Shown here in pieces: positions 965 through 35,774 of a stretch of DNA of 35,774 nt. The stretch is from the IMG/VR virus record IMGVR_UViG_3300043425_000450, positions 1-35,774 of that record; one strand, given 5' to 3'. The number at the start of each line of letters is the position of its first letter. The stretch's first letter is position 1. The translations under genes and the position numbers were made by a program. Under the pieces are notes generated by a model. The model made no database searches. It had not been told where the DNA came from and saw nothing but the letters and a program-made list of their open reading frames with translations. Source of the DNA: a virus.

Positions 965-1008
965 TACAGTCCCTCCAGCAGTTGATTCATGTTTGTTAGA
1001 ATAGGGGT

Positions 1009-1369
1009 GGTGGGTTTTCTGTTCACAAGGAACCCACCGAACTCGGGTAATCTAGTGCTTATTAAGCAGCTAGGGCCATGTCGTAAACTTCATCGTTTGC
1101 GTTTACTTGGTTTGCGCTGATTAAGTCAGTCGCCTCACTGGTAGCCGTCAGGTTATTATATGCCCCGTCGAAGCCTGTCATCCCCATCAAAAGTACATTA
1201 AGACCTTTTGGCTACTGCCGATACCAGTCAAAATGCACTTTTGGTGGAGATGGCGGGAATCGAACCCGCGTCCGAAACACCTTTAGCTGTCAGTTTACTA
1301 CCATTATCGTCGCGTCTTGAGTTGCTTAACCCAACTCCTGTACCCGATTAATACAGTGACGCAGTAGGT
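1009..1369 (-). ncRNA. ssrA: Circularly permuted (two-piece) tmRNA
   Basis: The acceptor piece comes first on the minus strand. It ends at 1242 with GGACGCGGGTTCGATTCCCG followed by CCATCTCCACCA, the classic tmRNA T-arm and CCA end. A 56-nt spacer (1241-1186) follows. The coding piece then starts at 1185 with GGGGATGACAGGCTTCGAC, the standard tmRNA 5' end. GGGGATG pairs with CATCTCC, giving the G3-U70 wobble needed for alanylation. A tag frame (1100-1062) encodes ANDEVYDMALAA then TAA. A 7-bp match, TACCCGA (1049-1043) with TCGGGTA (1347-1341), can join the two pieces. The exact outer ends are uncertain. The product would rescue stalled ribosomes and tag nascent peptides. Confidence 0.9.
1062..1100 (-). 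other. tmRNA tag-peptide reading frame
   Basis: The resume codon GCA at 1100 follows CAAGTAAAC and opens a frame reading ANDEVYDMALAA, ending TAA at 1062. The ANDE start and ALAA end match bacterial tmRNA tags, where the terminal LAA is the ClpXP recognition signal. The middle, VYDM, is unfamiliar to me. Preserving the degradation signal suggests the phage tmRNA is functional. Confidence 0.9.
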
Positions 1370-19059: not shown

Positions 19060-19170
19060 GGAATAGATTCGGTTCGTCTGACTTCGTAACATAGAGCGCT
19101 CTATGTCCTAGATCCCTATTAATGCCAGCGTTGTACGCTAGACCACTTACACCGAAAGGTTAGTGGCGGC
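19060..19170 (-). ncRNA. Hairpin-rich inter-tRNA segment
   Basis: No coding frame. It holds an 18-bp perfect palindrome (19089-19106), a 5-bp stem with 3-nt loop (19127-19139), and CCACT..ACC GAAA GGT..AGTGG (19143-19166), whose plus-strand loop is GAAA. It may be a processed RNA or decayed tRNA; strand and function are unknown. Confidence 0.4.
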
Positions 19171-19185
19171 AGATGTTATTTATAC

Positions 19186-19556: not shown

Positions 19557-19634
19557 TGGTGCCCACGGAGGGAGTCGAACCCTCAATTTTACGAATTTTA
19601 AGTTCGTTGCGGTTGCCAATTACGCCACATGGGC
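19557..19634 (-). tRNA. tRNA-Leu (TAA), 5' end overlapped by HNH gene
   Basis: GCCCATG/CGTGGGC acceptor, discriminator A, CCA; anticodon loop CTTAAAA on ACGAA/TTCGT. The last five codons of the adjacent HNH gene lie within its acceptor and D region. A matching 5' half-tRNA relic lies on the other side of that gene. Confidence 0.92.
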
Positions 19635-20066
19635 AGTCTTTAACTTTAAGGCTCTAGTGTAGTTACCACCTTTAGCGGAAAGACCTACTTTTAGTAGTGC
19701 TTGCCTTATGCTATTGGTAGTTTGAAGAGCCTCAATTAAATCTTCATCTGAAACCTTGACTTTACCTGTATTACCTTTACCACAATATGTGTGGGTTTGC
19801 GAATGGCAGTTTGGGCACAGAAATCTAAGATTTTCTCTCCTGTTATCTACAGTGTTTCCATTGATATGGTCCAAGTGTAGATTTAACGGTAGTCCGTTAT
19901 GCGATCCACGATTAGAGCAAACTTCGCAACAATATTCCCGACCCTCTTGGATCAAGAGTTTCTTTAGATAACCAGTAGAAGCACTTGAGCCAACATCAAA
20001 AACAACAGATTTGGCTTTGTCGTCTATTGCTGCTGTTGCCTTTTTTCGCATATCTTCTGTCCACAT
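19620..20066 (-). CDS. HNH homing-type endonuclease inserted at tRNA-Leu
   Basis: In the 148-residue protein the core has CCEVCSNRGSHNG, LNLHLDHINGNTVDNRRENL and RFLCPNCHSQTH: two CxxC zinc knuckles, DH and the Asn-rich loop (about residues 46-92). The C-terminus (SIRQALLKVGLSAKGGNYTR) looks like a DNA-binding helix-turn-helix. Its last codons run into the 5' end of an intact tRNA-Leu(TAA), and a truncated tRNA-Leu 5' half lies just upstream of it. This suggests target-site duplication by an invasive gene. Confidence 0.88.
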   Translation of the reverse strand: MWTEDMRKKATAAIDDKAKSVVFDVGSSASTGYLKKLLIQEGREYCCEVCSNRGSHNGLPLNLHLDHINGNTVDNRRENLRFLCPNCHSQTHTYCGKGNTGKVKVSDEDLIEALQTTNSIRQALLKVGLSAKGGNYTRALKLKTAHVA

Positions 20067-20970: not shown

Positions 20971-21356
20971 GGACAACTATACTCTTTTCACTAAAGGAGT
21001 ATAGTAAAATAAATGTGGTTTCGCTTTGGACGCCAGCCTCTCCGTTTGTGTCAACGGGTTTGCTGAATTTCTCTGACCTCTGCGCCTATGAGTTCGTAAC
21101 AGCAGATATTATCCAAGAGAACACAGCATCTTGGGATCTCTGTTCAACGAACTCCATTGCTACGATTACACCACAAGGTATCGTGCTGTCTGACGCATCA
21201 CTGCGTTTCGTCCCTATGGACTCATCAGAGACAGAAGGTTGATTGTTTGCACTATTTGCTGCGTCTCACCTTCAGGAGTCTAGAACTGAAGTTTTCTATT
21301 GGCGCAGTTAGTCAGGCATCTATAGTCTGTACAAGCCCATCGCTTGCAAACAATCA
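20971..21356 (-). ncRNA. Large multi-helix structured RNA, ~345-385 nt
   Basis: A 9-bp hairpin sits at the left (ACTATACTC...GAGTATAGT). A 6-bp closing pair TGTGGT (21014-21019)/ACCACA (21170-21175) encloses a coaxial tower: GAGTTCGT/ACGAACTC, AACAG/CTGTT and ATCCAAGA/TCTTGG-GAT (21090-21154). A three-way junction at 21186-21234 combines CTGTCTGA with CGCA/TGCG and GTCC/GGAC hairpins. An outer 11-bp stem GATTGTTTGCA (21241-21251) pairs with 21346-21356 around CTGCG/CGCAG and CTTCAG/CTGAAG stems. No credible CDS. Strand is inferred from flanking tRNAs. Confidence 0.6.
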
Positions 21357-22020: not shown

Positions 22021-22095
22021 GTCCACTCTGTTGTTTCAGATAGGTGCGGGTCAGATCCCGTACTGTGACAACCCGTTTTAGGGATTGCTGTGGAC
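22021..22095 (-). ncRNA. 75-nt four-way-junction RNA
   Basis: Closing stem GTCCAC/GTGGAC (22021-22026, 22090-22095). Inner hairpins are TCTG/CAGA (6-nt loop), GTGCGGG/CCCGTAC (6-nt loop) and CAACCC/GGG-TTG (6-nt loop). The size and cloverleaf topology match tRNA, but no tRNA loop motif is present. Strand is uncertain. Confidence 0.5.
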
Positions 22096-22100
22096 TTAAA

Positions 22101-22500
22101 AGGTGTGGGCTAATATATTTGCCGATATCAACAAATATATTTGTATTTCGACATAATCCCCACCCAACTATGTCATAGACTGTTTACCATTCCACTCATC
22201 TACAAACAGACAAACTCAATGAGTGTTACTAACGGTGCTATGTCCAACCTTGCAAGTAGGACTCTGGCTGCGGTTTGAGAGGCTTGTTTCCTAGGATACA
22301 GAGGCACTTCCCGCCACACCGTAAAGCGACGGTGTGCATATTAATTGAGGTGCCCCAGTTTCTCAGCCGCGCACCATGAACAGTCACTACTGTTGCTATA
22401 TTGGCTGGCATGGCTGGATTCGAACCAGCGACCAGACGATTAACAGTCGTCGGCTCTACCTCTGAGCTACACGCCAAAATCTTCGTGCCTTGCCCCACCT
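22101..22500 (-). ncRNA. ~400-nt RNA domain enclosing tRNA-Asn, with pseudoknot
   Basis: AGGTGGGGC (22500-22492) can pair with GCCCACACCT (22110-22101) with one bulge, closing the domain. Inside are a 10-bp stem AATATATTTG/CAAATATATT, and CATAG/CTATG around an H-type pseudoknot (CTGTTT/AAACAG at 22180/22204 interleaved with CACTCA/TGAGTG at 22193/22220). GGCACTTC/GAGGTGCC encloses the 8-bp CACACCGT/ACGGTGTG, and AACAGT/ACTGTT follows. tRNA-Asn is embedded at 22402-22476. This resembles giant phage RNAs with nested tRNAs. Confidence 0.6.
22402..22476 (-). tRNA. tRNA-Asn (GTT)
   Basis: TGGCGTG/CATGCCA acceptor, discriminator G, CCA; anticodon loop CTGTTAA on GACGA/TCGTC; T-arm GCTGG TTCGAAT CCAGC. 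It lies inside the large RNA domain. Confidence 0.95.
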
Positions 22501-22705
22501 AATACGCAACGCACAGTGGCAACCAATCTAGTCGCCTTACCTAGTAAATAAGAGCGCACTTTTCATCGTGATGGGGAACCCACCAAATTACGACTCGGGA
22601 CAGGAAGTCCTACCGTGTAAAGCTCACGGGAGTGGCGCAGCACTCAGAATACATGACGAATTGTAAAACAACCGAGAGCCGCGAGGGGCTTCGTATCAAC
22701 TCAAC
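22501..22705 (-). ncRNA. 5' hairpin array of the long RNA transcript
   Basis: Directly downstream of the promoter at 22712-22740 come four successive hairpins: CGA-AGCC/GGCTTCG (22673-22693), GAGTG GCGCAG CACTC (22630-22645), CCGTG TAAAGCT CACGG (22613-22629), GGAC AGGAA GTCC (22598-22610). No coding frame. It is likely the 5' portion of the same RNA as the adjoining domain. Confidence 0.5.
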
Positions 22706-22711
22706 ATAATC

Positions 22712-22740
22712 ATTATAGGCTATGCGAGTCGAAAAGTAAA
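22712..22740 (-). promoter_or_regulatory. Early-cassette promoter driving the RNA array
   Basis: TTTACT (22740-22735), 17 bp, TATAAT (22717-22712), preceded by GCAAGTGGTTGATTTTATTA, the cassette element. Unlike other copies, no coding leader follows; transcription starts the structured RNA. Confidence 0.75.
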
Positions 22741-24005: not shown

Positions 24006-24344
24006 TTAAGAATACTTGTTCCAGATTTCGAAATCCACGATTGCCTTCACCTTCATCCGAAACCGAAACTCTTCCCAGTTCTTCAGATACTCGGCGTCAT
24101 TCGCCAGCGCCTCAGCATGCAGCTGCTCATACTTGGCGTGCGCGGACTTGTCGTGGGCTTGGCATTCCCAGTGATTGTACGAACCATCCATATACTTGGC
24201 CTGAGCGCCGAAGCTGCTATACTTCACAAGATCATCAAAGTATCCATTCGCGTTGTGCTCGGCGAAATACTTTTTCGCAGCGGCTTCGCCATTCTTCTTG
24301 GCGCCATCAATATCGGACGGGCGACGATTTACCTTCTTGCTCAT
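24006..24344 (-). CDS. Early-region protein, unknown
   Basis: The 112-residue protein starts MSKKVNRRPSDIDGAKKNGE. The real ATG follows the cassette leader AAGGAAGCAAAA; the ATGATG further upstream lies at the expected transcription start. Rich in Lys, Ala, Tyr and Trp (NHWECQAHDKSAHAKYEQLH). No domain recognised; its position behind its own cassette suggests early expression. Confidence 0.6.
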   Translation of the reverse strand: MSKKVNRRPSDIDGAKKNGEAAAKKYFAEHNANGYFDDLVKYSSFGAQAKYMDGSYNHWECQAHDKSAHAKYEQLHAEALANDAEYLKNWEEFRFRMKVKAIVDFEIWNKYS

Positions 24345-24371
24345 TTTTGCTTCCTTATTCATCATAGTACC

Positions 24372-24399
24372 ATTATACCTGAAACGTCCCGAAAGTAAA
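24372..24399 (-). promoter_or_regulatory. Early-cassette promoter
   Basis: TTTACT (24399-24394), 16 bp, TATAAT (24377-24372) on the minus strand, with the 23-bp element GTAAGTTATTGATTCTGTTA upstream overlapping the previous gene's stop. Confidence 0.78.
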
Positions 24400-24427
24400 T
24401 CGCCGAAACTCTAACAGAATCAATAAC

Positions 24428-24775
24428 TTACACAAGGCCCATCTGGGCGTTCAGCTCGGCGACCTGGGCGTCGCTATACACCACAACCGAACCGTTCTTC
24501 TTGGAACGGCTCTTGACGATCGCAGCCTCGAGACGCAGGCGCATCTTTTCGATACGAGCCTGCTGCTTCATGTCGCGCTCGATCTGGCGCTGGATGCGCA
24601 GAGCGTTGCGCTGGGCGCGCTTCTCGTCGCGGAGACGCTTGGCGTCCTCGCGGACAACCCGAGCGATGAAACGCTCGGTGCGGAGCGTATCGCGCAGCTG
24701 CTTGTTCTGCTGCTGGAGAGCGCGGATGGTGGCGGTATTGGCCTTGACGGTCTCGCGCATTTGGCGAAGGTTCAT
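24428..24775 (-). CDS. Basic coiled-coil protein
   Basis: The 115-residue protein starts MNLRQMRETVKANTATIRAL. About 70 residues of continuous charged heptads, rich in Arg and Gln, follow, then SRSKKNGSVVVYSDAQVAEL. Strongly basic; it could bind nucleic acid or a host complex. The start follows the AAGGAGC-like leader of the cassette at 24.8 kb. Confidence 0.6.
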   Translation of the reverse strand: MNLRQMRETVKANTATIRALQQQNKQLRDTLRTERFIARVVREDAKRLRDEKRAQRNALRIQRQIERDMKQQARIEKMRLRLEAAIVKSRSKKNGSVVVYSDAQVAELNAQMGLV

Positions 24776-24802
24776 ATTTGCTTCTTTATTCATCATAGAC
24801 TC

Positions 24803-24830
24803 AGTATACTTGATTCTTGGTAAAAGTAAA
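24803..24830 (-). promoter_or_regulatory. Early-cassette promoter
   Basis: TTTACT (24830-24825), 16 bp, TATACT (24808-24803), with the cassette element overlapping the upstream stop codon. Confidence 0.75.
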
Positions 24831-24850
24831 TCGGTGAAACTTTAATAGAA

Positions 24851-25051
24851 TCAACGACTTGCGTCGAGAGCCGCTTTTTCGGCCTTGAACGCTGCGATGG
24901 CCTCGAGCAGCTTCTCAGTCTCGGCGGGAAATTCCTCTACCATAATCTGCACCATGCCCTGGAGCCGAATGGGTGAAAGGTCCGTGATCTTGTAGGCAGT
25001 GTGCGCGGAAACGAGATAATCTGTCTTGCGCATTTTGTGGAGTTTAATCAT
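24851..25051 (-). CDS. Small helical protein, unknown
   Basis: The 66-residue protein starts MIKLHKMRKTDYLVSAHTAY, then GMVQIMVEEFPAETEKLLEA and AFKAEKAALDASR. The start at 25051 overlaps the stop region of the membrane micro-protein; a longer frame has no better support. Helical and charged, no family recognised. Confidence 0.55.
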   Translation of the reverse strand: MIKLHKMRKTDYLVSAHTAYKITDLSPIRLQGMVQIMVEEFPAETEKLLEAIAAFKAEKAALDASR

Positions 25052-25052
25052 A

Positions 25053-25154
25053 TTACAGGCTCGCAATAGTAAAGACAATAACAAGGCCAATGGCCCAACC
25101 GATTACAGCACACACCGCGAAATCCAGGCGGTCGATAATTTCGTTAAACTTCAT
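25053..25154 (-). CDS. 33-residue membrane micro-protein
   Basis: Direct translation gives MKFNEIIDRLDFAVCAVIGW, then AIGLVIVFTIASL. One membrane helix spans about residues 13-32. It starts at the ATGATG that coincides with the cassette's predicted transcription start, so it may be translated from a nearly leaderless message. A TAA then an overlapping next gene follow. Confidence 0.6.
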   Translation of the reverse strand: MKFNEIIDRLDFAVCAVIGWAIGLVIVFTIASL

Positions 25155-25163
25155 CATAGACTC

Positions 25164-25191
25164 AGTATACCTGCACAGACCAAAACCGCAA
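25164..25191 (-). promoter_or_regulatory. Early-cassette promoter
   Basis: TTGCGG (25191-25186), 16 bp, TATACT (25169-25164), directly after the U-tract of the large terminator at 25197. Confidence 0.7.
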
Positions 25192-25196
25192 TGGTG

Positions 25197-25251
25197 AAAA
25201 CTCTAACAAAATCAATGACTTGCGCAAGTTACTGATTCTATTAGAGTTTTT
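25197..25251. terminator. Large bidirectional terminator / inverted 23-bp elements
   Basis: Two face-to-face cassette elements around CTTGCGCAAG make a ~24-bp imperfect stem with A/T runs at the ends, the same design as at 7644-7700. Confidence 0.8.
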
Positions 25252-28237: not shown

Positions 28238-28456
28238 TTACAGGCTCTTCGCAATTTCCCAGACGTTACCGACGTACGTGAACTCAGCGGGGTCGCGCCA
28301 CGCCGTGATCAACTGCCCGAATTCGTTGTATTCCTTCTTGGAAACTTTCTTCGGGAACTGAACGGACAACTCGCCCCTGTTCGTGACTGCTTCGACGACG
28401 CAGACCGTACCGTGAACCGTCTTGACGAGATCCATGGGCTGGAACTTTCTCTTCAT
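28238..28456 (-). CDS. Small SH3/KOW-like protein
   Basis: The 72-residue protein starts MKRKFQPMDLVKTVHGTVCV. The alternation VKTVHGTVCVVEAVTNRGEL, SVQFPKK is a five-strand barrel pattern; EFTYVGNVWEIAKSL closes it. Start after the cassette leader AAGGAAGC. Function unknown. Confidence 0.6.
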   Translation of the reverse strand: MKRKFQPMDLVKTVHGTVCVVEAVTNRGELSVQFPKKVSKKEYNEFGQLITAWRDPAEFTYVGNVWEIAKSL

Positions 28457-28483
28457 ATTTGCTTCCTTATTCATCATAGTTTC

Positions 28484-28511
28484 ATTATACCTGAACCGAT
28501 GAAAAAGTAAA
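28484..28511 (-). promoter_or_regulatory. Early-cassette promoter
   Basis: TTTACT (28511-28506), 16 bp, TATAAT (28489-28484), preceded by the 23-bp element overlapping the upstream TAA stop. Confidence 0.8.
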
Positions 28512-28539
28512 TCGCCGAATCTCTAATAGAATCAATGAC

Positions 28540-28890
28540 TTACGCAGTCCTCTTGAAATACCCGAACGGGACGCCCAGCTTCCACTCCAGGTCTTCGATG
28601 TCGTCCGCGCCATAGCCATCGAGCAGGTAGCGGACCGCGTCCTGACGCGTGGAACCCTGAACGGCATCCATGGCCTTGGCGATGGCTTCCTCGGCCTGCT
28701 TGATGCAGTGCAGCTGATGCGCTTCTTCTTCCGCGATTGCCTCGTCAGACAGGCGGCAGAGCCAATCCCACTCGGACTGCTTCTGGTCGTCGGTCAGCTG
28801 GGCCCAACGATCCCAGAAGGCATCCTTGGGACGGAAGCCATAGGCGTCTTTGAAAAGGTCGCTGATGATCGATTCGTCGAAAGTATACAT
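28540..28890 (-). CDS. Early-region helical protein, unknown
   Basis: The 116-residue protein starts MYTFDESIISDLFKDAYGFR. FWDRWAQLTDDQKQSEWDWL resembles a block seen in other phage hypotheticals. A middle Ala/Glu-rich helix with HQLHCIKQAEEAIAKAM and a C-terminal GYGADDIEDLEWKLGVPFGY follow. Its stop lies in the next cassette. Confidence 0.65.
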   Translation of the reverse strand: MYTFDESIISDLFKDAYGFRPKDAFWDRWAQLTDDQKQSEWDWLCRLSDEAIAEEEAHQLHCIKQAEEAIAKAMDAVQGSTRQDAVRYLLDGYGADDIEDLEWKLGVPFGYFKRTA

Positions 28891-28902: not shown

Positions 28903-29118
28903 TTAGCCCATTCCGAACATGCCGAACATGCTTTCGTATTCTTCGGTTCCGCCTACGTCGTAGGCGAACTTTCCGTTAACGTAAAGAATCGTGTCTGAGT
29001 CCCTGAGCTCTACCTTCTTACCGTTGTAGATAGCCCGAAGGTATACGTCGCCGCGCTTGAACGCGATCGCCTTCCATTCCGCCTTCGTGAGGATCTCGAA
29101 AGCTTCCGCCTTCTTCAT
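28903..29118 (-). CDS. Small protein with Gly/Met-rich tail
   Basis: The 71-residue protein starts MKKAEAFEILTKAEWKAIAF. Strands YLRAIYNGKKVELRDSDTIL, YVNGKFAYDV and an ending ESMFGMFGMG follow. The ATG follows the cassette leader AAGGAAGTAAAG. No family recognised. Confidence 0.6.
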   Translation of the reverse strand: MKKAEAFEILTKAEWKAIAFKRGDVYLRAIYNGKKVELRDSDTILYVNGKFAYDVGGTEEYESMFGMFGMG

Positions 29119-29145
29119 CTTTACTTCCTTATTCATCATAGACTC

Positions 29146-29173
29146 AGTATACCTGAACCGATGAAAAAGGCAA
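29146..29173 (-). promoter_or_regulatory. Early-cassette promoter
   Basis: TTGCCT (29173-29168), 16 bp, TATACT (29151-29146), with the element GTAAGTTATTGATTTTATTA upstream. Confidence 0.78.
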
Positions 29174-29201
29174 TAGGGGAAACTCTAATAAAATCAATAA
29201 C

Positions 29202-29450
29202 TTACGCACGCCCCAGTTTTCGGACTGAATCTGCGCACAGGGAAGCCGCTGCACCCCGATCAGGCTCATAGGCTCCATAGTACCGTTCCCACTCGTCGCA
29301 CTCTTTAGCGGCTGCTTCGATGCGGTTTGCCTCAATCAGTCTGGCGAACCGCAGAATAGCCTCATTGTCCCATGTGTCTGGGACTCCATCTGAGTGAAGT
29401 CCCGCCTCATAAGCAAAATCCTGAATGTCAAGATCCGTGAGTTTACTCAT
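29202..29450 (-). CDS. FA-(R/E)LI paralogue family member
   Basis: The 82-residue protein starts MSKLTDLDIQDFAYEAGLHS. It carries the shared pattern of a family repeated in this region: an N-terminal helix ending in (E/Q)AG, a variable linker, then RFARLIEANRIEAAAKECDE. Its TAA stop opens the next cassette. Function unknown. Confidence 0.65.
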   Translation of the reverse strand: MSKLTDLDIQDFAYEAGLHSDGVPDTWDNEAILRFARLIEANRIEAAAKECDEWERYYGAYEPDRGAAASLCADSVRKLGRA

Positions 29451-32708: not shown

Positions 32709-32908
32709 CACTTTTCTCCAATCCCAAATTCAATCATAATAGCATCAGCGATGTCTTCAGAATCGAAGTAACCATAATTGTCCATTCCCTGCGGAGCGTA
32801 TCGATCAATGATAGCAACGATGCGATCACGAATAACCTTATCAGCAGCACTAATCTCAGTGTACTCAGGATCTACACAAAACCAACGGGCATAACGCAAT
32901 TCAGTCAT
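32708..32908 (-). CDS. Small acidic protein
   Basis: The 66-residue protein starts MTELRYARWFCVDPEYTEIS, then AADKVIRDRIVAIIDRYAPQ. Helical, acidic end. ATG follows the cassette leader AAGGAAGTAAAT. No family recognised. Confidence 0.6.
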   Translation of the reverse strand: MTELRYARWFCVDPEYTEISAADKVIRDRIVAIIDRYAPQGMDNYGYFDSEDIADAIMIEFGIGEK

Positions 32909-32935
32909 ATTTACTTCCTTATTCACTATACATCC

Positions 32936-32963
32936 ATTATACCTGAACGAGCGAAAAAGGCAA
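32936..32963 (-). promoter_or_regulatory. Early-cassette promoter
   Basis: TTGCCT (32963-32958), 16 bp, TATAAT (32941-32936), element GTAAGTTATTGATTTTATTA upstream. Confidence 0.8.
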
Positions 32964-32991
32964 TAGGAGAAACTCTAATAAAATCAATAAC

Positions 32992-33369
32992 TTACAGAAA
33001 CCACTCCCTAGCCTTCTTTTCTGGGTCTTCCAGACCGTATTTCCTAGCGAAAGCCTCTAGCAACCTAACGTCATGGTCTGGTCCATAGATGCTGTTGTGA
33101 ATGTCCAGATACCCAGACAGTTGTGCTGGAGCGTAGGCTTCAGGACCAAACTCAAACACGCCATAGAGCGCATGACGATAGGAGCCTTGGTCTACGATCT
33201 CTGCCTGATGAATGCGCCTAGAAACGGCACAGAACGCCTTCAGTTGATCTTCCTTGCTGAGACTGTTCCAATAGGCTTCTGAATCCTTCTCGACCTCAGC
33301 CATGACCTTGTTGAAGGTATTGCTCCACTCTTGGAGATCATCAGAAAATGACTTCTTTTCTTCACTCAT
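32992..33369 (-). CDS. Conserved phage protein, unknown
   Basis: The 125-residue protein starts MSEEKKSFSDDLQEWSNTFN. YWNSLSKEDQLKAFCAVSRR, GSYRHALYGVFEFGPEAYAP and GYLDIHNSI form a block I recognise from several phage hypotheticals. Helical, cytosolic. Its TAA opens the adjacent cassette. Confidence 0.75.
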   Translation of the reverse strand: MSEEKKSFSDDLQEWSNTFNKVMAEVEKDSEAYWNSLSKEDQLKAFCAVSRRIHQAEIVDQGSYRHALYGVFEFGPEAYAPAQLSGYLDIHNSIYGPDHDVRLLEAFARKYGLEDPEKKAREWFL

Positions 33370-35397: not shown

Positions 35398-35543
35398 CAA
35401 TAGGTTCCCATTTCGTACTGCTCGACCCGCCAACGATCGTATTCATCCTCGTCGTTGATGAGGCAATATTCCTCGAAGGCCAGCGCGGCTTCGTACTCCG
35501 CGAACTCTGCGTTGAGGGACTCGACGACTTCGCTCATGGACAT
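35397..35543 (-). CDS. 48-residue acidic protein
   Basis: Direct translation gives MSMSEVVESLNAEFAEYEAA, LAFEEYCLINDEDEYDRWRV and EQYEMGTY. Very acidic helix. The start follows the cassette leader GAGGAAGCTAAC. Confidence 0.65.
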   Translation of the reverse strand: MSMSEVVESLNAEFAEYEAALAFEEYCLINDEDEYDRWRVEQYEMGTY

Positions 35544-35570
35544 GTTAGCTTCCTCATTCATCATAACACC

Positions 35571-35598
35571 ATTATACTTGAACTGGAGTAAAAGTAAA
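35571..35598 (-). promoter_or_regulatory. Early-cassette promoter
   Basis: TTTACT (35598-35593), 16 bp, TATAAT (35576-35571); the upstream element contains the TGA stop of the preceding gene. Confidence 0.78.
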
Positions 35599-35618
35599 CC
35601 AGTGAAACTCTAATGGAA

Positions 35619-35774
35619 TCAATAACTTACGTGCTCGTCCCCAAAGTCGCTCTCATCAGCCTCAAATTGGCCTGGACGGAACTGCCAACGCTCTTTATTA
35701 GAGAGCCGCTGCTGAGCCTTTTTCTTTTCCCGACGCTCATAAAAGTCTTCCCGATTATTGTGATCATAACGATC
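35619..35774 (-). CDS. C-terminal part of a charged phage protein
   Basis: The last 51 codons before a TGA at 35621, continuing off the right edge: DRYDHNNREDFYERREKKKA, QQRLSNKERWQFRPGQFEAD, ESDFGDEHVSY. Highly charged. No family can be assigned without the N-terminus. Confidence 0.55.
   Translation of the reverse strand, partial: DRYDHNNREDFYERREKKKAQQRLSNKERWQFRPGQFEADESDFGDEHVSY

Follow-up and report, generated by a model that had tools for sequence, protein, structure and literature searches.

A conserved leader RNA in an rrn-like setting and an inter-tRNA pseudoknot element in the tRNA operon of an apparent huge phage

Introduction

The leader of the Escherichia coli rrn operons (rrnTAC) carries its signals in the order boxB-boxA-boxC, and boxA works there together with boxB and boxC (PMC10250234). 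A consensus for boxA, GYTCTTTAANA, has been published (PMC5725501). In reporters, boxA acts with NusB/S10 and partners to block Rho on untranslated RNA, while for E. coli rRNA the main role of boxA and the Nus factors may be RNA maturation and not antitermination (PMC4807359).

Phages possess leaders of related kinds. The lambda nut sites, which function with the N protein, are operon leaders with a boxA-type signal, arranged boxA-boxB. The put RNA of phage HK022, of approximately 70 nt, comprises two stem-loops downstream of a phage promoter; it contacts RNA polymerase itself, binding the β′ zinc-binding domain independently of factors, and has no need of Nus proteins (PMC9378689). Other structured RNAs are associated with phage tRNAs, among them the large non-coding RNAs GOLLD and ROOL. 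The tRNA cluster of phage T4 encodes extra stable RNAs, C and D. We describe here a phage tRNA operon that invites comparison with each of these systems.

Results

The tRNA operon and its promoter

The DNA analysed (the window), a virus record 35,774 bases long, is, judging by its relatives, probably a fragment of a huge phage; through one protein, its nearest named relative is the uncultured 735-kb phage LR756501 (55% identity). A tRNA array occupies 22476-18322 on the minus strand, and the region 22101-22705 is a real structured RNA at the start of this operon. Within it, an ordinary tRNA-Asn(GUU) with an encoded CCA (22402-22476, minus strand) lies between two modules: a leader extending from the promoter to the first tRNA (22477-22705, minus strand), with equivalents in 11 related contigs, and an element containing a pseudoknot. 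An HNH endonuclease gene is situated within the array (19620-20066, minus strand; phrog_10822, E 9.5e-31). Elsewhere in the window, a permuted tmRNA was found at 971-1347, minus strand (tmRNA_permuted, 146.5 bits; beta_tmRNA, 122.6 bits), the tag of which is given by ARAGORN as ANDEVYDMALAA; tmRNA is also present in the related contigs L183 and L158.

The promoter placed by the initial annotation at 22712-22740 (minus strand) is genuine: it is sigma70-like, TTTACT-N17-TATAAT, with 10 of 12 matches, and resembles a promoter family of the phage. The stretch TTGATTTTATTAGA (22764-22751), upstream of it, is common to that family and recurs before several genes in the window phage and in L014. The family follows the pattern TTGATTYTATTAGA...TTTACTTTTN..TATAATG, and seven copies of a 119-nt repeat occur elsewhere in the window. 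These dispersed repeats (24314-24432, 24745-24863, 25106-25224, 28426-28544, 29088-29206, 32878-32996 and 35513-35631) resemble the promoter family in the form AGTTATTGATTYTATTAGAGTTT...TTTACTTTTT...TATAATG...AATAAGGAAGTAAA-ATG. Another short stretch, possibly a small RNA, is conserved immediately upstream of the tRNA-operon promoter in L003, L185, L189, L190, L194, L195 and L197; it often has a TATAAT-like box of its own and a common end (GCACCGAAAACTGCGACCTTTTT type).

From the promoter to 20671, approximately the first 2 kb and including the vicinity of 22101, no terminator-like site was found on the minus strand, so that the transcript should run on through the tRNA array. Of the non-coding transcript of approximately 600 nt proposed earlier, the promoter and the non-coding character stand; the 600-nt unit does not, as no terminator was found to end it and its modules are separable.

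Two separable modules

The region had been read as one giant RNA enclosing the tRNA-Asn and closed by a long-range helix (22492-22500 with 22101-22110). The nested tRNA, the local hairpins and the two interleaved helices of the pseudoknot are all present, and the pseudoknot is conserved in relatives. The closing helix, in contrast, has a partition-function probability of 1.6%, and each of its arms has a local pairing with better support: GCAAGGCAC (22493-22485) forms the 3′ side of hairpin B in the leader core, and CCCACAC (22109-22103) pairs with GGGTGGG (22165-22159). Covariation among homologues, the absence of which had been named as refuting the first reading, is positive for the two local modules; the long-range helix is unsupported. 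In folding energy the 605 nt are moderately better than shuffled sequences (z -2.58 with 20 shuffles; z -2.06 with 100, of which 4 were as good), whereas the leader alone is no better than shuffles (z -0.76). Folding energy alone is weak evidence outside the core; covariation is strong.

The arrangement in relatives bears on the same question. In L003, four tRNAs and one tRNA detected by Rfam only lie between the leader and the tRNA-Asn with its pseudoknot element. L190 and L194 have the leader, but only 5 nt lie between their tRNA-Asn and tRNA-Ala, and neither record contains the pseudoknot element anywhere, which makes the two modules independent. No Rfam large-RNA model matched the region at the gathering threshold, and relaxing the E value to 10 yielded nothing beyond tRNA and weak chance matches; nor does any Rfam family match either module. 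Caution about an identity with GOLLD or ROOL had been apt. Size, phage origin and a nested tRNA would suit an RNA of that type, as would the proximity of tRNAs, but the missing Rfam match, the improbable closing helix and the halves that occur separately and apart in relatives led to the rejection of a giant closed RNA and render a GOLLD/ROOL-type identity hardly credible. Instead of a single closed unit there are two small modules, which the first reading had joined into one.

The leader and its two-hairpin core

A plain DNA similarity search for homologues matched mostly tRNAs. By way of the DNA ligase and other proteins encoded nearby, relatives were located, among them L003, L013 and L014; in each of these three, a leader with shared motifs sits between a promoter and the first tRNA. 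Two degenerate patterns then extended the set to 11 contigs in all (with L185, L187, L188, L189, L190, L194, L195 and L197). XacN1 was without a compact tRNA array usable for comparison.

The conserved part of the leader is a core with the consensus GGUAAG, hairpin A, CCAC and hairpin B with a G-rich loop. In the window it occupies 22480-22543 (minus strand), with CAC between hairpin A (22536-22531/22523-22518) and hairpin B (22514-22506/22493-22485). A covariance model (R1), trained on L013, L014, L187, L188 and L189 only and with the window excluded, has its best window match at 22543-22480, the expected place (23.1 bits, E 1.2e-4 over 35.8 kb; runner-up, 14.1 bits). In an alignment of eight sequences, fitted to the R1 model and hence somewhat favouring the structure, 12 of 19 pairs are changed on both sides; 18 covariation cells were counted, versus 5.0 after shuffling (0/500) and 1-5 in slid versions. 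Hairpin B of the window, GUGC-UUGC/GCAA-GCAC, differs from GAUA-CUGC/GCAG-UAUC by four compensatory pairs. The core also folds better than shuffled sequences (z -3.73; 2/500 shuffles). A long alternative pairing of GUUGAUA in the 5′ part of the leader with UAUCAA in its 3′ part is possible in several relatives and absent in the window, where hairpin B is changed by compensatory pairs; it was not retained.

In each of the 12 contigs the core heads a tRNA array and has a single convincing match; the cores of L190 and L003, and of L194 and L195, are near-identical. In ten of the 11 relatives only a few nucleotides separate the end of the core from the array's first tRNA, which is Thr in nine of them and, in L014, Leu. 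The exception is L013: between its core and the first tRNA called there is a stretch that resembles the 5′ end of a tRNA, along with some 400 nt of other sequence. The window array begins with tRNA-Asn. The model found no match in 98 other related phage records, mostly fragments, or in the whole 735-kb LR756501, so that the core looks confined to a narrow clade, as far as records that are mostly fragments can indicate.

The proximity of hairpin B to the first tRNA in nearly all arrays is what would be expected of a pre-tRNA processing or stability element, providing 5′ protection or positioning RNase III, E or P and leaving termination unaffected; rrn leaders, too, serve RNA maturation (PMC10250234, PMC4807359). 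This reading, which leaves the boxA matches described below unexplained, including a letter-identical rrn boxA in distant arrays, is considered unlikely. The two adjacent stem-loops, together 64-79 nt and not far downstream of a phage promoter, also recall, by description, HK022 putL/putR, and could bind RNA polymerase directly without Nus factors. The window core, however, begins approximately 160 nt after the transcript start, and the operon is of another type with boxA neighbours; a put-like RNA is judged very improbable.

boxA signals

In the compact leaders, a hairpin and then a sequence resembling rRNA boxA lie upstream of the core. Compared with GYTCTTTAANA, this sequence matches at 11 of 11 positions in L185 and at 10 in L003, L013, L014, L187, L189 and L197 (p 0.002-0.05, relative to same-length windows of the same contigs). 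The 9/11 match in L194 is not significant on its own, and the leader of L188 contains no convincing boxA. Summed over ten leaders, the score against TGCTCTTTAACA, the E. coli type of boxA, was 87; across 1000 shuffles the mean was 69 and the highest score 77.

The corresponding part of the window was examined in the same terms. A boxB-like 5′ hairpin, CGA-AGCC-CCTCGC-GGCT-C-TCG (22673-22693, minus strand), was recognized by sequence comparison only, with manually identified counterparts in L003 (GAGC-GUC-CUUCGC-GAU-U-GCUC) and L189 (GGA-AGUC-CCUGC-GACU-C-UCC); these hairpins have a bulged pyrimidine on the 3′ arm. The candidate boxA, GTTGTTTTACA (22662-22672, minus strand), matches at 9 of 11 positions (p=0.13, not significant alone). 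Between it and the core lies a window-specific insert with extra hairpins (22557-22659, minus strand; fold z -1.38) that is absent from the compact relatives. An alternative candidate, CGCTCTTA (22549-22556, minus strand), presumably of the lambda-nut type, is directly 5′ of the core; its 12-mer score of 7/12 is not significant. A covariance model of boxB-boxA (R2) had no match in the window. The boxA assignment in the window is thus weak, and draws on position and on the relatives.

Leaders of more distant huge-phage arrays, which lack the core and begin with tRNA-Gln, show a promoter, often a hairpin, and then boxA. The boxA matches at 11 of 11 positions in L022, L084 and L041 and at 10 in L024 and L030; as L084 and L041 are closely related, the five arrays do not all count as independent. 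One more distant array, L027, has no boxA. In L084 and L041 the boxA is GTTCTTTAAAAATT, followed by TGTGGGC, and is letter-identical to the rrn boxA of β- and γ-proteobacteria. A search with GTTCTTTAAAAATT plus TGTGGGC retrieves rRNA operons, mostly from Betaproteobacteria and Gammaproteobacteria: among 80 genome matches examined, a 16S start lay at ≤450 nt in 41, a contig end or masked bases in 38, and neither in 1. The order hairpin (boxB) then boxA after the promoter is seen in L003, L185, L189, L194, L195 and L197, and among distant arrays in L084, L030 and L024. A literature search, with most subscription journals outside its reach, returned no report of boxA in phage tRNA operons.

The inter-tRNA pseudoknot element

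The second module, an element of approximately 130 nt after tRNA-Asn (22099-22229, minus strand), is a new RNA element conserved in relatives. Its pseudoknot is formed by helices S1 (CACTCAT/ATGAGTG, 22225-22219/22199-22193) and S2 (CTGTTT/AAACAG, 22209-22204/22185-22180), and 6 of 7 pairs are formed in its terminal helix, the GGGTGGG/CCCACAC pairing given above. The part of the Asn-Ala spacer 5′ of it (22230-22401, minus strand), with a CACACCG/CGGTGTG hairpin at 22336-22315, is specific to the window; relatives have a shorter 5′ hairpin in its place.

The spacer following tRNA-Asn was matched in five relatives (L003, L185, L187, L195 and L197). A covariance model (R3), trained on L003, L185 and L187 with the window excluded, recovers 22229-22099 of the window (21.7 bits; E 2.5e-4 over 6 kb and 0.013 over 303 kb). 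With the pseudoknot counted explicitly, 7 of 21 pairs are changed on both sides, giving 12 covariation cells versus 4.0 after shuffling (0/500); S1 contributes four of these pairs, S2 two and the terminal helix one. Shuffling the window spacer 200 times yields a pseudoknot of like size in 13 cases, and the folding energy of the spacer alone has z -1.79; it is the homologous position and the covariation, not the mere presence of a pseudoknot, that make it convincing.

Further structured sequences were observed in these arrays. A second possible H-type pseudoknot in the same spacer (22030-22096, minus strand) combines AUCCC/GGGAU with CGGGU/ACCCG, enclosed by GUCCAC/GUGGAC. An inter-tRNA element at 21246-21355 (minus strand), with a counterpart at L185 c9428-9300 and, distantly, at L194 c991-874, has a conserved middle (AACTGCGCC...GAGACGCAGCAAATAGTGC) and a long closing stem that differs in sequence between the window and L185; it is possibly a further RNA family. 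A structured spacer of 232-262 nt (ATGCCCGAAGCCTCTGCAGCAATGTACGCTTCGGC...), another candidate inter-tRNA RNA, is kept between phages (L187 c6299-6068, L190 c805-544, and also L003 and L185 after tRNA-Ala). An intergenic element of approximately 118 nt (19065-19182, minus strand) shares 71-81% identity with copies in relatives, which are situated away from the tRNA array (L003 9614-9730, L013 3139-3252, L014 6998-7102); the L003 copy matches Rfam RF02939 (COG2908 RNA) with 71.8 bits.

By description, the T4 stable RNAs C and D are likewise structured RNAs, other than tRNAs, that are scattered through the tRNA operon of a phage; the RNAs seen here are a leader core and a pseudoknot element, both with covariation. 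Like the T4 RNAs, the leader and the pseudoknot element might be trans-acting or stable small RNAs freed by tRNA processing. Both have compact conserved folds with strong covariation and adjoin tRNA ends, from which they would be released by RNase P and 3′ processing, and the arrays contain several further structured inter-tRNA RNAs. The strict location of the leader at the 5′ end of the operon, in 12 of 12 contigs, and the neighbouring boxA signals favour a role in cis, and we regard this alternative as rather doubtful.

Discussion

The best explanation of the leader, to which we attach about even confidence, is that it is a cis-acting, rrn-like antitermination and maturation signal of an untranslated tRNA operon. 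Like the E. coli rrn leader, it is the leader of an untranslated stable-RNA operon and lies just after the promoter, with a hairpin and then boxA, the related phage leaders matching the consensus at 10-11 of 11 positions. The order promoter-hairpin-boxA-core parallels boxB-boxA-boxC of rrn and supports this explanation; in the lambda nut sites the order of hairpin and boxA is reversed. Unlike the rrn leader, that of the phage heads a tRNA array and not rRNA, a two-hairpin core replaces the linear boxC, and the window boxA is degenerate.

By this explanation, once polymerase had left the promoter, host NusB/S10 would bind boxA, which follows the hairpin and precedes the core, and the core would serve as an extra binding element for NusA, SuhB or a phage factor. 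The polymerase so modified would resist Rho and hairpin-induced termination over approximately 4.4 kb of mostly untranslated, highly structured tRNA RNA, and the leader would be removed by RNase P cleavage at the first tRNA. The pseudoknot element downstream of tRNA-Asn is an inter-tRNA RNA in its own right, one that is probably either set free or shielded as the tRNAs are processed. The position, promoter, homology and covariation are observed, as are the enrichment of boxA in related leaders and the rrn-identical boxA of two distant arrays; binding of Nus factors, antitermination and RNA processing are inferred.

The weak window boxA, the failure of R2 to match in the window and the boxA-less leader of L188 count against antitermination of this kind, as does the possibility that boxA and the Nus factors serve mainly maturation at E. 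coli rRNA; nor is any counterpart of the core known from rrn leaders. For the first three reasons, the core could work without boxA. It might even represent a new family of phage RNA antiterminators, itself binding RNA polymerase or Nus factors and making polymerase resistant to termination through whole tRNA arrays, with the adjacent boxA partly replaced; this is thought quite unlikely. The core is, apparently, a new, clade-restricted RNA element in an rrn-like setting.

Huge phages carry long tRNA arrays, and no description was found of how such untranslated operons escape Rho. The leader core and the inter-tRNA pseudoknot add two RNA motifs without an Rfam match. An rRNA-like leader, with an rrn-identical boxA in some arrays, suggests that these phages use the host's mode of stable-RNA transcription for their tRNAs.
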